Positions 4,215-14,725 of a stretch of 64,000 bases of DNA are shown one piece after another. The stretch is taken from positions 1,488,001 through 1,552,000 of the forward strand of contig NZ_CP008887.1 in NCBI RefSeq assembly GCF_000769655.1. Direction: 5' to 3'. Position 1 is the stretch's first letter. Every line of letters begins with the position of its first letter. The notes beneath the pieces are model-generated. The model saw only the letters and a list, made by a program, of their open reading frames with translations, made no database searches and had not been told where the DNA came from. Origin of the DNA: Thermococcus eurythermalis. Lineage in GTDB: Archaea; Methanobacteriota_B; Thermococci; Thermococcales; Thermococcaceae. A program made the position numbers and the translations under genes.

Positions 4215-4975
4215 GACTGATACTGCCCGAAAGCCCACACATGGAGTTCAGCGGGGCCGGAACTGACTTCGTTTACGGGATAACCCATGTTGGGGGGCGG
4301 AAACACAACGAGGACGGCCTGCTCATCATGAAGCTCCCCGACGGCTACCTGCTCGCGGTCGCGGACGGACTGGGCGGTCACAACGCCGGGGAAGTCGCTT
4401 CTAGGCTGGCCCTGGAAACCCTTGCGGAGGTCTTTGAAGGGGAGTACGTTGAAGGCCTTGAAGAAGACCTTCTCGCGATTCTCCTGAAGAAGGCCCATGA
4501 GGTTGCCCACTCCGTTGTTAGAGAACGGGCAAGGGGACCACTTGAGGGAATGGGGACGACCCTCGTCTCGGCTGTAGTTAGGGGAAGGACCGTTATCGTT
4601 GCCAACACCGGCGACAGCAGGGCGTACCTGGTTTCCGGAGGGAAACTCGTCGCGAGGACGCTCGACCACTCTCCTCTTCAGGAGCTCGTCCTCATGGGGC
4701 AGGTCAGCGAGGAGGAGGTCATGTACCACCCGCTCAGGAACAGGGTGAGCTCAGCCATTGGAAGGCACCTAATGGTTGACCTCTACCGCTGGGAAGCCGG
4801 ACCCGGCCACATCCTCCTTCTCAGCACGGACGGTCTTCACGACTATGTCTCAAAGGAAGAAATCCTGCGGACGCTCATCCCTGGGAAAACGGCACGTGAC
4901 CTCGCCAAAACCCTCGTGGAAAGGGCCCTGACTGTCACTGAAGACAACGTAACGGTGGTGGTGTGGAGATGGTGA
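4211..4975 (+). CDS. Soluble PP2C-family Ser/Thr phosphatase
   Basis: 254 aa, essentially one PP2C domain with no signal peptide or membrane segment, so cytoplasmic. Metal-binding motifs are intact: HNED near residue 32, DGLGGH near 52, GDSRAYL near 134, STDGLHDY, and EDNVTVVV at the C-terminus. It is clearly paralogous to the PP2C domain of the transmembrane phosphatase at 1528 (shared LPDxYLLAVADGLGGHNAGEVAS stretch, read as two motifs). It starts at ATG 4211, overlapping the preceding stop, and its own stop lies inside the next gene. It probably opposes the kinases of the operon by removing phosphate from their activation loops or substrates. Confidence 0.9.
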   Translation: MRLILPESPHMEFSGAGTDFVYGITHVGGRKHNEDGLLIMKLPDGYLLAVADGLGGHNAGEVASRLALETLAEVFEGEYVEGLEEDLLAILLKKAHEVAHSVVRERARGPLEGMGTTLVSAVVRGRTVIVANTGDSRAYLVSGGKLVARTLDHSPLQELVLMGQVSEEEVMYHPLRNRVSSAIGRHLMVDLYRWEAGPGHILLLSTDGLHDYVSKEEILRTLIPGKTARDLAKTLVERALTVTEDNVTVVVWRW

Positions 4976-7900
4976 ATGCAAAGGCTATGCTCGTTATCGT
5001 GTTGCTGTTATCTTCCCTCTTTCCGCTAAGTCCAACCCTTGCTCAACCTATCCAGGGGGATGAGCTTAAAATCGCGTACCTTGCCGCCCAGGGTAGCCTC
5101 TTCATGGGTGTCTTCAACCCGTCCCCGAGCGGAATGACCGACGTTTACACCCACCGCATCTGGTACTTCCTCAACGACCCGCCCTACGTGATGGGACCCG
5201 ACGGAAGCTATCACAGCTACCGCTGTCAGCTTGTCAGTGTCAATTACAACGTTCAGGTTCCGGGCGATGCCGTAATCTGGAATGACACCCTCGGCGAGTG
5301 GACCTCCCCATACGCCGGCAGAACAGCCAGGAGTGCCGTCACCTGGAAGTGCGGTCTCGGAACCTGGGTTGACGGTCAGAAGATAACCCTCGCCGACTAC
5401 TTATTCGCCTACGCAATGGACTGGGAATGGAGCCATGAAGGGGGAGCGTACTACGACCAGAGCTGGAGCGCCAGCGAGGCCGGCAAGCTCCAAGGAATCT
5501 ACGGTCTCGAGGTGAAAGCCGTCACATCTGATTACGTTGAATTCACGGTCTACCAGGATTATGCAGTTCCATACAGCAGGTGGGCCACCGCCGTTAACTA
5601 CGTCCCATACCCGGAGTTTCCCTGGCAGCTCTATTATGCAGCCTCCGAGCTCGTGGCAAAGGGATACGGCGGCAAGATGTTCTCGTGGAGCTCGAAGTCC
5701 GTCAACGGATACCAGCTCAACCTGATAGACGAGGAACAGATGGAGTACATTTCGGGCATGCTCTCAAGGCTAAAGGATGAAGCTCCTATTCCGGGCCCCC
5801 TGTCGGAGCTTTCAAGCGTTCTCGGAAAATGGGGTCTGGACTACTACCACTCCGGCCTTCAGGATGCAGAAAGCGGGTACTCGGCCCTGATAGGCTGGAT
5901 TTCAAACCACAAAAATGCCCTCGTGACCAATGGACCGTACTACGTTGAGGACTACGACGCTGAGGATATGAAGCTCGTCCTCAAGCTCGCGAACAACAGA
6001 AGGGTCGGGTTCCCAGACACCGTTAACGGTAAGACCCTTCCCTGGGAGCCGTACTGGAGAGAGATTGACGTTTACGGCGTTCTCAACGACTACACGGCTA
6101 TTCTCTCCGTGGCTAAAGGCGAGTACGACCTGTACTGGTTCACCAGGCCGTATAGTACTTTGTCCAGTGTGGTTCAGGAATACGGCAAGAACATCAACCT
6201 GATTAAGGCTATCTTCACCTGGTGGAGCATCAACCTCAACCTCGCAGGAGACTCCACGACAGGCCTCGTGGAAACCTCCAACGGAACCCGCTTTAACCCG
6301 TTCGCGCTCCGTGAGGTCAGGTTTGCTATGAACTGGCTCATCAACAGGCAGTACATCGTCAGCCAGATCCTCCAGGGAAGCGGTGCTCCAATCTACGGCC
6401 CAAATCCAACGGGCCAAGTTAACGCACACGAGAATTACGTAACCGTTGCGAAGGCTATGGGAATAACCTCTCAGGGTGACGAGAACTATGCCATCAAGAT
6501 GATTGACGAGGCCATGACCAGGGCATCCTCAGAACTCTCAGACTTAGGACACACCCTTGAGAAAAGGGACGGTGTCTGGTACTTCGACGGTCAGCCGGTT
6601 ACCGTGAAGATTATTGCTCGTGTTGAGGACGAGAGGCTTGATGAGGGCAAGTACCTTGCCCAGATACTCCAGAAGGCGGGCTTCAAGGTTGACCTCCTCC
6701 AGTGGCAGAGGAGCCAGGCCAGCAGGATGGTTTACAGTAGCGACCCCAAGGAGCTTCAGTGGCACGTTTACACTGTGGGTTGGGTCGTCAGCGGAATTCA
6801 AGACATCACGGACCTCGCCTGGGACTTCTGGTACTACGGCAGTTACGTCGCTCCAAATTGGGGTTCCAACTACCACAACCCAGTAACGGTCAGAGACGTT
6901 CTCAACGCTATCGCCAGCGGTGACGTTGCCAGGTTCATCAGCGAACTAAACCTCAAGTACTACAACACTCCGAATAAGCTCAAGCCTCTCCTCGACTGGA
7001 CAGGCTACGACCTTGCTAACTTACTCGCCTACGCTAAGTGGACAAAAAACGGATGGACAGTGAGCGTATGGAGCATTGACCAGTTCTGGGACCTCTACAA
7101 GCTCGCCTACGCACTCCACCTCTACAACGCCCCCAGAATCTACACGGCCGAGGTGTGGAACTTCTACATCACCAACAAAAGGGTGAAAGTTGGAATCCCC
7201 GACCCAGTTACAGGACTTGGAAGCTTCCTTGCCGTCCGTTCGCTTGAGCCCGCTGAAACATCGGTGTCAGGAGGAACAACAGGAACAGAAACAACGACTT
7301 CGGCATCTCCACAGGTGCAGGGTGATATGGGAACAATCGAAGTAGTCTCCATACCTGCAGGCGCTGAGGTTTACGTTGACGGAGGCTACCAGGGAATAGC
7401 ACCAATAAACGTCAGTGTATCCCCTGGGACGCACAGGGTTCAAGTGAAGATGCCTGGCTATGAGGAGTACTCGACGACGGTCACGGTAGATGCCGGAAAA
7501 ACCGTTGTTCTAAACGTAAACCTGGAACCCAAATCCGGAACCCTCGTAGTTGACTCAACACCCTCGGGAGCCAGCGTTTACGTGGACGGCACCTACCGCG
7601 GGACTACTCCCCTGACCGTTGAGCTACAGCCGGGCCAGCACACGATAAACGTGACTCTCGAAGGCTACAAGCCATACTTGGCAACGGTCAATGTTCCTCC
7701 AGGTGAAACCGTAAAGATAACGGCGAAGCTTGAGAAGAAAATCGCGACGGGGACGGTTTGGATAAATTCTCAGCCCACAGGAGCGGACGTCTACGTTGAC
7801 GGCACGTGGCGCGGGACAACACCGCTGACGCTCACCCTTCCACCGGGTACCCACACGATAGAAATCCGGAAGGAGGGCTATCCACCGACCAGAAAAACGG

Positions 7901-9309
7901 TTGAGGTTGCCCCAGGAGAAGAAAAGAAAATAACGCTAACCCTCGCGGTGGTGACCTCTCAGGATACCCAACCGAAAACGACCAGCGAATCCACGCCGGC
8001 CAACGCAGTTCCAAGGAAGGCCATCGCAGTGGTTCTGGCCGTGTTCATCCTTGTTGGGGCAGTGCTCCTCCTCAAGCGCTCGCGCTCTGGAGGAAAGACC
8101 CAAAATGAGCCCTCCAAGGGTTCAATTGAGGGCTTCCCGGCCGAGCTCTTGGACAGGTACGAGCCCCTTGAGTTCCTCGGGGAGGGTGGTTTTGCCAAAG
8201 TCTTCAAGGTCAAACGCAAAAAGGACGGCAAAACAGTCGCCCTAAAAATCCCGAGGATTGACGAGAAAACCAGCAAGACCTTCCTCCGTGAGGTTTCAAC
8301 GTGGTTCCAGCTCAATCACCCCAACGTCGTCAAGCTCTACGACGCGGACATTTTACCCGTTCCCCACCTCGAGATGGAGTTCGTTGAGGGTGCTGAGGTT
8401 GATGGAAAGCTCGTTAGAACGCTCGAGGAACTGCCAAAACCCGTTGATGAGAAAACCGCACTGGGACTCATAAAGGGCATTGCGGAAGGCCTAAAACACG
8501 CCCACTCAAAAGGCATCGTTCACCGCGACTTAAAGCCCGGAAACATCCTCCTAAAGGCCAACTTAACGCCAAAGATAACCGATTGGGGATTAGCCAAAAT
8601 CGGAACGATGAGCTCGGGAAGGAGCGTGATGGGCTATACCCCACTCTACGCCGCGCCGGAGCACCTGATGCCAAGCAGGTTTGGAAGCACAGACCACAGG
8701 ACAGACGTATGGCAGTTGGGGACGATTTTCTACGAGCTACTGACCGGCAGGGTTCCGTTTGAGGGCTACACATACGAGGAGGTCTTCGGCAAGATAACCG
8801 ACGAGAACTACCGCCATAAGCCGCCCTCCGATTTCAACCCGGCATTGGCAAAGTACGATGGGCTCTTCGAGAAGTTGCTGGCGAAGAGGAAGGAAGACCG
8901 CTACGGAAGCGTCGAGGAGTTTCTGGAAGACCTTGAGAAGCTCAGGGAGAGCGAGAGGAGAAGGGAAGAGCTTGAATCCCAGGTTGATGAGCTGAAGAAA
9001 ACGCTCACAAGAAGCGTGGAGGCTCTAAAAAAGAGTAGGAGTGCGGATGAGACCCTAAAGAACCGCCGGTTAGTTGTCGAGACCCTCGGCAGGCTGGCGT
9101 TGGCCTACGCGGAGCTCAACAGGAAGGCAGAGCTTCTCAACACCCTCAACGACCTCAAGTTCTACACGGTGCAGAACATTAACGATTTGACGAAGGCAAT
9201 AACCATAGTTGAAACTCTACTCCGGGAGAACCTTCCGGTGGAGAAAGACTTCGTGGAGAGGCTTAAGGTTCTCGTGCACAACATCAAAAGGGAAAACGAA
9301 GCGAACTGA
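4963..9309 (+). CDS. Oligopeptide-binding protein-PEGA-TM-Ser/Thr kinase fusion receptor
   Basis: A 1448-residue receptor kinase. A signal peptide (about 1-28) precedes a full-length ABC-type peptide-binding domain of the SBP_bac_5/DppA family (about 35-765). A Thr/Ser-rich linker leads to three PEGA repeats (about 790-855, 860-925, 929-995), each with a YVDG-x3-G-x2-P core. One transmembrane helix (about 1021-1040) connects to a kinase domain (1066-1325) with GEGGFAKV, VALKI lysine, HRDLKPGN (about 1187) and DWG (about 1207), then the operon-specific helical tail. The architecture says that peptide or sugar capture outside controls phosphorylation inside. No permease or ATPase genes accompany it, so transport is unlikely. 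GTG 4963 overlaps the phosphatase stop; ATG 4969 is an equally good start. The family assignment of each domain is firm; the ligand is unknown. Confidence 0.9.
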   Translation: MEMVNAKAMLVIVLLLSSLFPLSPTLAQPIQGDELKIAYLAAQGSLFMGVFNPSPSGMTDVYTHRIWYFLNDPPYVMGPDGSYHSYRCQLVSVNYNVQVPGDAVIWNDTLGEWTSPYAGRTARSAVTWKCGLGTWVDGQKITLADYLFAYAMDWEWSHEGGAYYDQSWSASEAGKLQGIYGLEVKAVTSDYVEFTVYQDYAVPYSRWATAVNYVPYPEFPWQLYYAASELVAKGYGGKMFSWSSKSVNGYQLNLIDEEQMEYISGMLSRLKDEAPIPGPLSELSSVLGKWGLDYYHSGLQDAESGYSALIGWISNHKNALVTNGPYYVEDYDAEDMKLVLKLANNRRVGFPDTVNGKTLPWEPYWREIDVYGVLNDYTAILSVAKGEYDLYWFTRPYSTLSSVVQEYGKNINLIKAIFTWWSINLNLAGDSTTGLVETSNGTRFNPFALREVRFAMNWLINRQYIVSQILQGSGAPIYGPNPTGQVNAHENYVTVAKAMGITSQGDENYAIKMIDEAMTRASSELSDLGHTLEKRDGVWYFDGQPVTVKIIARVEDERLDEGKYLAQILQKAGFKVDLLQWQRSQASRMVYSSDPKELQWHVYTVGWVVSGIQDITDLAWDFWYYGSYVAPNWGSNYHNPVTVRDVLNAIASGDVARFISELNLKYYNTPNKLKPLLDWTGYDLANLLAYAKWTKNGWTVSVWSIDQFWDLYKLAYALHLYNAPRIYTAEVWNFYITNKRVKVGIPDPVTGLGSFLAVRSLEPAETSVSGGTTGTETTTSASPQVQGDMGTIEVVSIPAGAEVYVDGGYQGIAPINVSVSPGTHRVQVKMPGYEEYSTTVTVDAGKTVVLNVNLEPKSGTLVVDSTPSGASVYVDGTYRGTTPLTVELQPGQHTINVTLEGYKPYLATVNVPPGETVKITAKLEKKIATGTVWINSQPTGADVYVDGTWRGTTPLTLTLPPGTHTIEIRKEGYPPTRKTVEVAPGEEKKITLTLAVVTSQDTQPKTTSESTPANAVPRKAIAVVLAVFILVGAVLLLKRSRSGGKTQNEPSKGSIEGFPAELLDRYEPLEFLGEGGFAKVFKVKRKKDGKTVALKIPRIDEKTSKTFLREVSTWFQLNHPNVVKLYDADILPVPHLEMEFVEGAEVDGKLVRTLEELPKPVDEKTALGLIKGIAEGLKHAHSKGIVHRDLKPGNILLKANLTPKITDWGLAKIGTMSSGRSVMGYTPLYAAPEHLMPSRFGSTDHRTDVWQLGTIFYELLTGRVPFEGYTYEEVFGKITDENYRHKPPSDFNPALAKYDGLFEKLLAKRKEDRYGSVEEFLEDLEKLRESERRREELESQVDELKKTLTRSVEALKKSRSADETLKNRRLVVETLGRLALAYAELNRKAELLNTLNDLKFYTVQNINDLTKAITIVETLLRENLPVEKDFVERLKVLVHNIKRENEAN

Positions 9310-12194: not shown

Positions 12195-12243
12195 TTGGGT
12201 TAGCGTTATAAACTCAACTGAAAAGCTTTTGGAGGTGGTAAAG

Positions 12244-13536
12244 GTGATTGATAAGGTTTACTGTGCCGATGTTAAGCCCGAACTGGAAGGACAAAGGGTT
12301 AAGCTCGCCGGATGGGTTTACAGGAAGAGGGAAGTCGGAAAGAAGGTGTTTATCGTCCTTAGGGACTCGAGCGGAATCGTCCAGGTGGTCTTCTCAAAAG
12401 ACCTCGGCGAAGACACCTATAGAGAGGCCAAAAAGCTTGGAATCGAGTCGAGCGTCATCATAGAGGGAACCGTCAAGGCAGACCCGCGCGCGCCGACCGG
12501 GGCCGAGGTTCAGGCCGACAAGCTTGAAGTTATCCAGAACGTTGACTTCTTTCCGATAACCAAGGACGCGAGCCCTGAGTTCCTGCTCGACGTCAGGCAC
12601 CTGCACCTCCGCTCGCCGAAGGTCGCGAGCATAATGAAGGTCAAGGGCACTCTTATGCAGGCCGCCCGCGAGTGGCTCATCCAGAACGGTTGGTACGAGG
12701 TCTTCCCGCCGATACTCGTAACCGGTGCCGTTGAGGGCGGCTCAACGCTTTTCAAGCTCAAGTACTTCGACCGCTACGCCTACCTGAGCCAGTCCGCACA
12801 GCTCTACCTTGAGGCGGCCATTTTTGGCCTCGAAAAGGTCTGGTCGCTTACGCCAAGCTTCAGGGCCGAGAAGAGCAGGACGAGGAGGCACCTCACAGAG
12901 TTCTGGCACCTGGAGCTTGAGGCCGCCTGGATGGACCTCTGGGACATCATGAAGGTCGAGGAGGAGCTCGTGAGCTACATGGTGCAGAGGACGCTTGAGC
13001 TCAGGAAGAGCGACATCGAGACCTTCAGGAAAGACCTGACGACCCTTAAGAACGCCGTCCCGCCGTTCCCGAGGATAAGCTACGACGAGGCGATTGACAT
13101 ACTCCAGAGCAAGGGCGTCCAGATAGAGTGGGGCGAGGACATGGGCGCTGACGAGGAGCGCGTCCTTACCGAGGAGTTCGAGGCTCCGTTCTTCGTCTAT
13201 GGTTATCCAAAGCACATCAAGGCCTTCTATATGAAGGAAGACCCCGAGGACCCGAGAAAGGTGCTCGCCGCTGACATGCTCGCGCCAGAGGGGTACGGCG
13301 AGATAATCGGCGGCTCCCAGCGTGAGGACGACTACAACAAGCTCGTCCAGCGTATTCTGGAGGAGGGCATGAACCCCGAGGACTACCAGTGGTACCTCGA
13401 CCTGAGGAAGTACGGAAGCGTCCCGCACAGTGGCTTCGGTCTCGGCCTTGAGCGTCTAGTGGCGTGGGTTCTCAAGCTCGACCACGTCCGCTGGGCAACA
13501 CTCTTCCCGAGGACGCCGAGCAGGCTGTATCCGTAG
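12244..13536 (+). CDS. asnS: Asparaginyl-tRNA synthetase
   Basis: 430 aa class IIb aminoacyl-tRNA synthetase that charges tRNA-Asn. An N-terminal OB-fold anticodon-binding domain (about 1-105) precedes the catalytic core with motif 2 FRAEKSRTRRHLTEFWHLE (about 203-221) and motif 3 GFGLGLERL near the C-terminus. The protein tracks the Pyrococcus AsnRS more closely than archaeal AspRS: the YRKREVGKK insertion and the GSQREDDY and FPRTPSRLYP motifs are AsnRS features. GTG 12244 is chosen because GGAGGTGG (12230-12237) precedes it; the frame itself extends to TTG 12229. The TAG stop is followed immediately by the first hairpin of the gene-free tract. Confidence 0.93.
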   Translation: MIDKVYCADVKPELEGQRVKLAGWVYRKREVGKKVFIVLRDSSGIVQVVFSKDLGEDTYREAKKLGIESSVIIEGTVKADPRAPTGAEVQADKLEVIQNVDFFPITKDASPEFLLDVRHLHLRSPKVASIMKVKGTLMQAAREWLIQNGWYEVFPPILVTGAVEGGSTLFKLKYFDRYAYLSQSAQLYLEAAIFGLEKVWSLTPSFRAEKSRTRRHLTEFWHLELEAAWMDLWDIMKVEEELVSYMVQRTLELRKSDIETFRKDLTTLKNAVPPFPRISYDEAIDILQSKGVQIEWGEDMGADEERVLTEEFEAPFFVYGYPKHIKAFYMKEDPEDPRKVLAADMLAPEGYGEIIGGSQREDDYNKLVQRILEEGMNPEDYQWYLDLRKYGSVPHSGFGLGLERLVAWVLKLDHVRWATLFPRTPSRLYP

Positions 13537-14640
13537 CAACCTTTGCCTGCGCAAAGGTTGACCAAAGTCCGTAGCTCCTCACAACGGGCCTGTGTGAAGC
13601 TCGATTTTCTTTTAGTTTTCTTTGAGCCCCAAAAGGGGAATAACCTTAGACTCCAGCTACAGTGTCGGTTTGCTCTCCTCTTGACGCCCTTCGGGCGTCT
13701 ATGCCAATGTTAAACCCACACAAGCAGGAGCGATCCAAAAGTTCTCACTTCACGGGACCGAGTCATCCAACGAGAAAATCACTTTGAGTTTTAGTTTTTC
13801 AGAAGGAGCTACAAACTTTGATGAAACTTTTGCTTGGCAACAAACTTTTGGGAAAAGTTTGATCAAAAAGGTTCCATCTCCCACCAACGGGTAGAAATCA
13901 GTCGTGCATTAAGGGATTTGCCGATTCTTGGGCGAGTTTACTCTCCAAGCAAGCACCTTCAGGTAGTTTCAAATTCGTTTTGGCGTCCAAAGGACGCCGG
14001 GGAAGTGAAACACTCACCAAGCAAGCTTTTGGGAAAAGCTTGACCAAAAGGGTCAAACCCTCACAAGGGGACAAAGATAAGTCGCATGCCTACTAAACAG
14101 TCCGTCAATGAGGGGTTTACATTTACACCCGCTTGAGGGAAGGTGTTTAGCTTGTAACGCGCCCAAAGGGCGCTAATGGAGGAAACACGCTCAAAGATGG
14201 CAACTTTGATAATAAACCCTCAAAATCAGCCCATCTCAAAAAGCATGTTCCCCTTGTGATGAAACTTTTCCCCAGAAAAGTTTCCCCGCCAGCGCTGAAA
14301 CTTTGCCTTCGCAAAGTTTCATCAAAGTTTGTGATTCTTCTAACAGGGTGTTTTGAGAGTGTTTGCGCTTTTAACGGCTTTTTGGAATGCGAATTCCTAA
14401 ATTTTGGAAGCTTTCTCACGCGGGTTTACTTTTCATCGCGCTCCGAAGGAGCGCCTCTTAGAGAAACCCCTCCTAAATAGCTCCTTTGAAGAGAATTCTT
14501 TGAGAGTACTGGCACTTGAGAGTGAAAACCTCTTAGGATTGCATTTTTGGAGAAGAATCACGAACCTTGGTCAAACTTCGCGTAGGCGAAGTTTGTAAGG
14601 GGGGGCAGTTTGGGGCTGTCGCCCCCCTGGGGGTCCCGAC
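13537..14640. repeat. Gene-free tract of alternating short hairpins
   Basis: About 1.1 kb without credible genes, more AT-rich than its flanks. Perfect inverted repeats occur throughout and fall into two classes. Class A (9-10 bp stem, 3-4 nt loop, AAACTTTT or CTTTGC core): 13537-13560, 13841-13861, 14022-14042, 14261-14284, 14297-14320, 14572-14595. Class B (6-7 bp GC-rich stem, loop TTC, AAA or GAA): 13683-13699, 13982-13998, 14159-14173, 14438-14454. Apart from one doubled A, the classes strictly alternate. Most class A units are followed, or on the other side preceded, by GAYCAAA/GGTCAAA. Short open frames here (for example 14256-14480) simply translate the hairpins and are not annotated. 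Confidence 0.75.
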
Positions 14641-14725
14641 GTCATCGCAACCCACTACTCGTCGGGCGGAGGGAGTAGGGTAAAGGTCTTATAACCTTCA
14701 CCCCAACCCAGGGCAGGTGCGAAAC

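Follow-up and report, generated by a model that had tools for sequence, protein, structure and literature searches.

The hairpin tract lies at positions 13537 to 14595 of the window, the term used here for the whole 64,000-nucleotide stretch of DNA that was analyzed. On the left, it directly follows an open reading frame (ORF) that we take, from its sequence, to be aspS, encoding aspartyl-tRNA synthetase, and on the right, it adjoins the 3' end of a candidate noncoding RNA (ncRNA) gene. It is an array of hairpin-bounded units of three types, in the order U1, partial U3, U3, and U2. In the list below, A and B denote the two hairpin classes, T-end an outward-type hairpin end, and I-end an inner-type one.

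12229 to 13536, plus strand: presumed aspS; its stop codon TAG (13534 to 13536) abuts the array
13537 to 13560, plus strand: A hairpin, complete T-end of U1, directly 3' of the aspS stop
13537 to 13840, plus strand: U1 unit, with the flank GTAGCTCC; the central B hairpin is GACGCCC, and the T-end hairpin on the right, GAAACTTTTGCTTGGCAA, is cut short at the adjoining hairpin of the next unit
13683 to 13699: B hairpin of U1, GACGCCC-TTC-GGGCGTC
13841 to 13861: A hairpin (I-end) that opens the partial U3
13841 to 14021, plus strand: partial U3 unit, assigned from sequence, with a right arm of only ~24 bp
13982 to 13998: B hairpin of the partial U3 span, GGCGTCC-AAA-GGACGCC
14022 to 14042: A hairpin of the inner type (CAAGCTTTT...) that opens the second U3
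14022 to 14295, plus strand: U3 unit, ending in CCGCCAGCGC, a remnant of its own terminal (A3) hairpin
14159 to 14173: B hairpin of U3, GCGCCC-AAA-GGGCGC
14261 to 14284: A-type hairpin within the end of U3
14296 to 14321: A hairpin, left end of U2; matched by the R1 model (see below) with an E value of 5e-15
14296 to 14595, minus strand: U2 unit, with the flank GTGATTC and a central B hairpin GCGCTCC
14438 to 14454: B hairpin of U2, GCGCTCC-GAA-GGAGCGC
14572 to 14595, minus strand: A hairpin that forms the complete T-end of U2, lying within a few bases of the ncRNA candidate's 3' end
14600 to 14667, minus strand: conserved ncRNA candidate of ~68 nt, preceded by a TATA box and bordered by the array at its 3' end

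Elsewhere in the window, positions 4963 to 9309 hold a 1448-aa ORF that presumably combines a solute-binding domain, PEGA-like repeats, a membrane segment, and a Ser/Thr protein kinase domain.

The sequence-only reading of this DNA counted at least ten perfect palindromes in the tract. There are exactly ten, six of class A (stems of 9 to 11 bp, loops of 3 to 4 nt) and four of class B (stems of 6 to 7 bp, loops of 3 nt). Six hairpins with stems of at least 8 bp are observed against 0.13 expected from first-order Markov shuffles (200 runs, with a maximum of 1 such hairpin). The alternation of the two classes described in that reading runs along the tract (A B A B A B A A B A) and is broken once, at 14261/14296, where two A hairpins are adjacent. 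The A-to-B spacing is ~140 bp, two spacings in the window being shorter. The motif GAYCAAA, said to flank class A, is found on the unit side of most copies (as its reverse complement in the right-most one), and some copies carry the variant CATCAAAG instead. The GC content of the tract is 41 to 48%, versus 55 to 60% in its surroundings. As proposed earlier, the tract is neither coding (its ORFs of 64 to 90 aa have no Pfam match) nor a CRISPR locus (it consists of alternating palindromes and family-specific 140-bp arms and has no tandem repeat). The tract has no Rfam, tRNA, or Pfam match; a known structured RNA family was rejected, as no Rfam covariance model matches.

A complete unit is ~290 bp long and consists of an A hairpin, an arm of ~140 bp, a central B hairpin, an inverted arm of ~140 bp, and another A hairpin. 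It thus forms an imperfect inverted repeat with perfect A hairpins at its ends. Neither this architecture nor the location at the 3' ends of stable-RNA genes described below was part of the sequence-only reading. The unit type is predicted by the B sequence, namely, GACGCCC in U1, GCGCTCC in U2, and GGCGYCC or GCGCCC in U3. Among 125 B hairpins, U1 arms end in GTAGCTC, with both arms present in 30 cases, and U2 arms, in 29 cases, end in GTGATTC; U3, with B hairpins GGCGTCC, GGCGCCC, or GCGCCC, is mostly flanked by CGCTGGCGG on one side and, on the opposite side, by a second arm. The consensus of each type can be aligned with its reverse complement along almost its entire length (scores of 128, 180, and 134 for U1, U2, and U3, respectively), and self-inversion in individual U1 and U2 units mostly exceeds that in shuffled controls. 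In a comparison in which unit orientation was not normalized, the left and right arms within a unit resemble each other less than do left-right pairs drawn at random across units, which indicates that the arms are copies that diverged long ago rather than a long stem that is being maintained. A single long RNA or DNA hairpin per unit was rejected, as within-unit arm pairing is not kept. The terminal ~45 nt of the unit are among its most conserved parts.

The A hairpins are flanked by TTA, TAA, or CA on the gene side and by AYCAARG on the unit side; I-end stems include GAAGC, CAAGC, and CAGCC. In an alignment of chosen A hairpins, 93% of cells pair. In a set of 103 tRNA-adjacent hairpins, found by their flank and not by pairing, 96 stems are perfect, with 1,045 Watson-Crick, 1 G-T, and 5 A-C pairs. 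In RNA structure, G-U pairs would be expected. The near absence of G-T pairs from A-hairpin stems (1 of 1,056) suggests that it is in the DNA that pairing is important or undergoes correction, and the perfect stems appear to fit DNA-level palindromes better than RNA structure, an argument limited by the shared ancestry of the copies.

A BLAST search with the tract yields 38 matches in the Thermococcus eurythermalis genome. R1, a covariance model of the A hairpin and its flank, matches 16 places there with E values below 1e-4, of which 14 are main arrays; the self-comparison suggested by the sequence-only reading thus reveals related arrays at 13 other main places. This genome was examined by searches and by stretches around the matches, and loci from other genomes were mostly fetched because they matched the hairpin-array family. 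The terminal motif is found in 77 of 94 Thermococcaceae genomes, with up to 67 matches per genome; among these 94, it is absent from all 9 genomes of one sister genus, perhaps Pyrococcus, and from three genomes of the genus to which the window belongs. It is also absent from all sampled genomes outside Thermococcaceae, and a scan of named genomes gave matches only on contigs labeled Thermococcus, Thermococci, or Thermococcaceae. An origin from plasmids or phages was rejected, with no match on either. A search of open-access papers yielded no description of these arrays, and keyword searches of papers on the T. gammatolerans genome, chromosome flipping, and the Thermococcus transcriptome gave no mention of them. 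According to their description, the sRk48/sRk52 repeats of P. abyssi are K-loop ncRNAs, of which T. kodakarensis has one copy; they are therefore not members of this family.

The arrays are found predominantly at the 3' ends of tRNA genes. Thirteen of the 14 main arrays in the T. eurythermalis genome adjoin a tRNA 3' end, and two of the tRNAs concerned contain introns; the fourteenth is the one in the window, with the aspS stop on its left and the 3' end of the ncRNA candidate on its right. If all gene 3' ends were equal targets (46 tRNAs among ~2,200 genes), the binomial probability of this count would be 2e-21, although sites share ancestry, so that this and the other counts and P values given here overstate the number of independent events. 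A unit end is found at the 3' flank of 16 of 46 tRNA genes in this genome and of 20 of 40 in genome G024. The gap between the CCA and the hairpin is mostly 2 to 4 nt (mode 2 to 3, range 0 to 9), indicating that the junction between unit and RNA gene is not strictly precise. The ends at tRNA genes are of the outward type in 65 cases, whereas none of 30 inner-type ends is found there. Outward ends, mostly 2 to 4 nt past tRNA 3' ends, also occur at the 3' ends of sRNAs and ncRNAs and at some ORF stops; at locus L029, the array abuts what appears by eye to be the 3' end of a C/D-box sRNA. Arrays often lie between convergent genes. The ncRNA candidate of the window (GCCCGACGAGTA...CGTCGGGACCCCCAGGGGGGCGACAG...CTGCCCCCC) has no Rfam match; of 61 genomes from the genus, 51 contain it. 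In relatives, a U1/U2 end, a U3 end, or no unit at all is present at the 3' end of this candidate. Inner (I-end) hairpins often adjoin a second repeat, also short and dispersed, CTGTACTCTCAAACCCC...GTGGGGCTTCGCCCCAC...GGGGGGCTAACGCCCCC (L024, 1748 to 1850; L029, 1490 to 1590; and L199).

Orthologous sites differ in both the presence and the type of units. Thus, the Arg(gcg) and Val(tac) tRNA genes are array-free in T. eurythermalis and carry a U2-type end in G024; Gly(ccc) is array-free in the former and has a U1-type end in the latter; Ile has a U1-type end in the former and U3 in the latter; and Lys(ttt) has U3 and U2, respectively. At the aspS site, an array is present in some relatives and missing in others. 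In genome G020, whose aspS segment is 94% identical to that of T. eurythermalis, homology with the latter usually stops at the tRNA 3' end. Such stops are seen at tRNAs with or without arrays (L021 to L033 and L166 to L185 versus L206 to L225), and these ends have the look of general breakpoints or of hot spots for insertion. Beyond arrays, and also beyond many tRNAs that have none, the flanking DNA is usually different in relatives, so that rearrangement or gene conversion could yield part of the polymorphism.

The sequence-only reading took the hairpins as evidence of conserved structure rather than recent copying. Its first half stands, as compensatory changes keep pairing: the covariation score in the alignment of chosen A hairpins is 0.258, versus 0.107 after shuffling, and the further copies present in relatives have kept their pairing. 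Its second half is not supported. Family members are dispersed, orthologous sites are polymorphic, whole units have been gained between relatives, and two T. eurythermalis arrays, at 152 kb and 849 kb, have 464 bp in common with 97.8% identity, which indicates recent copying within the genome.

Inside arrays, many outward hairpins lack their 5' arm and have the complete inner hairpin of the neighboring unit in its place, as in L026 (CAGCCTTTCTTAAAGGCTG-TT-GCAAAGTTTCATCAAGG). The U3 outer hairpin is complete in 19 of 20 tRNA-adjacent cases, compared with 7 internal or other cases; most internal ones are truncated, with an inner hairpin directly upstream (Fisher test, ~1e-8 to 1e-11; the internal set includes some chance matches in coding DNA, and the value without them is 1e-8). 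An orthologous pair of loci with 92% identical flanks, L098 and L130, differs by one whole U1. L130 reads ncRNA-TCA-[complete U3 hairpin], whereas L098 reads ncRNA-TTA-[complete U1]-GCGCTGGCGG, the last element being a remnant of the U3 hairpin; in L098, U1 therefore sits between the ncRNA 3' end and the older U3. In the window, the U1 hairpin is intact at aspS and the complete end of U2 faces the ncRNA candidate.

Judging from these sequence comparisons, it is reasonably likely that the tract is an array of a noncoding, nonautonomous mosaic family, specific to Thermococcaceae and resembling mobile elements, that stacks its units at the 3' ends of RNA genes. New units would be joined at the RNA gene-proximal end of the array, with the gene 3' end or its terminator as the probable insertion target. 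The adding might be performed by a trans-acting recombinase or a host repair activity, which would recognize the hairpin ends as DNA. The unit encodes no protein and hence would be nonautonomous; no mobilizing enzyme or autonomous copy was found. Among the empty and filled orthologous sites compared, the far flanks usually differ, so that no clear target-site duplication could be scored. The Y1 (IS200/IS605-type) transposase family (Pfam ID PF01797) is found in 25 of 94 genomes and is missing from most array-rich ones, including G014, G024, and G030; mobilization by RAYT/Y1 was rejected for this phyletic mismatch. The T. eurythermalis genome encodes one intact transposase of this type (G000:C1:1847269-1847625); in this genome, the R1 terminal motif is found only at arrays, with none at the transposase locus. 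We more tentatively consider the possibility that hairpin-ended noncoding units are added serially at stable-RNA-gene 3' ends of any sequence, each consuming half of the previous terminal hairpin, in what would be a new mode of archaeal DNA mobility. If true, this would mean that transcription termination or RNA 3' ends guide a recombination system.

The main rival to the mobile-element reading is a selected function at RNA 3' ends, which would also account for the locations of the arrays. Arrays kept by selection as bidirectional transcription terminators or 3'-trailer hairpins of tRNAs and sRNAs would be expected where the arrays are, 2 to 4 nt past mature RNA 3' ends, and the conserved terminal ~45 nt would fit such a role. 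Further, several array-free tRNAs have a T4 or T5 run within ~14 nt, and array-bearing tRNAs often have their first T4 run after the hairpin, 42 to 48 nt from the CCA, in the unit flank CTCCTTTT/ATTCTTTT. However, a T4 run within 80 nt is missing at 30 of the 103 sites, at least half of the tRNAs have no array, orthologous tRNAs differ in its presence, and multiunit arrays built of ~290-bp units far exceed the length that a terminator needs. The virtual absence of G-U pairs, which an RNA hairpin could tolerate, also argues against terminators, and we consider this explanation rather unlikely.

The same scarcity of G-U pairs (a single G-T) counts against units that encode structured ncRNAs, for which the covariation of the A hairpin and the RNA gene neighborhood could be adduced. 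With no TATA box seen by eye in the unit consensus, long-range arm pairing not kept, no Rfam family, and no description in the Thermococcus transcriptome papers searched for repeats, this is the least probable explanation, and a very remote one. In enterobacteria, REP/BIME elements bind gyrase, and by analogy the arrays might structure the chromosome, binding a nucleoid protein or topoisomerase or marking domain boundaries. The A+T-rich composition of the tract, the regular ~140-bp hairpin spacing, and the ~14 sites per genome, often between convergent genes, would suit such a role, but the motif is missing from the nine sister-genus genomes and from three of the same genus, array positions are not conserved among relatives, and a literature search found no link to TrmBL2 or SMC boundaries. 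A structuring role thus seems improbable.

In the two genomes counted, unnamed arrays lie directly behind about one-third to one-half of the tRNA genes. Their presence could account for the hypervariable DNA that follows archaeal tRNA genes. Genetics exists for Thermococcus, and the polar, hairpin-consuming growth and gene-end specificity would make a mechanism of targeted insertion at RNA 3' ends directly testable there. The arrays could also be one source of the rapid rearrangement of Thermococcales chromosomes, the cause of which has been debated (PMC5495485).

Among known systems, CRISPR differs in having near-identical short direct repeats with unique spacers of 30 to 40 bp, which the arrays lack. 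The tRNA-targeting elements of Thermococcales (pTN3/SSV type) encode an integrase, recombine inside the tRNA gene, and duplicate its 3' part (PMC2718504). The arrays share with them the tRNA gene 3' region as a chromosomal target but leave the tRNA untouched and use non-tRNA genes too. Integron cassettes (attC) resemble the arrays only in the way they work, with hairpins of variable sequence and conserved structure and with polar addition at one end; no integrase (no window ORF near the array resembles one), cassette gene, or attI is apparent in the arrays, and a hairpin is consumed at their junctions. Like MITE and fold-back elements, the units are short, noncoding, dispersed, and multicopy, with inverted-repeat ends; no parental transposase or target-site duplication was found for them, and, unlike those elements, they have ends that are closed palindromes and stack in polar arrays. 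REPINs consist of two inverted palindromes that bound a spacer and move as one unit. Compared with this general picture, the units likewise have inverted palindromes around a spacer but differ in its much greater length, a third, central hairpin, and no association with RAYT. BIME/REP elements are alternating extragenic palindromes in mosaic arrays that vary between strains and undergo complementary changes that keep the palindromes (PMC2817692). The arrays share these traits, having multiple, alternating extragenic palindromes, but their unit is ~290 bp with two hairpin classes, compared to REPs of 20 to 40 bp; they lack both a GT(A/G)G head where the hairpin begins (GTAGCTC lies ~12 nt off, in U1 only) and a consistent Y1/RAYT gene; and they are archaeal and specific to RNA gene 3' ends. 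Without that head and a consistent RAYT gene, the family is not assigned to BIME/REP, which are nevertheless the closest to it in arrangement.
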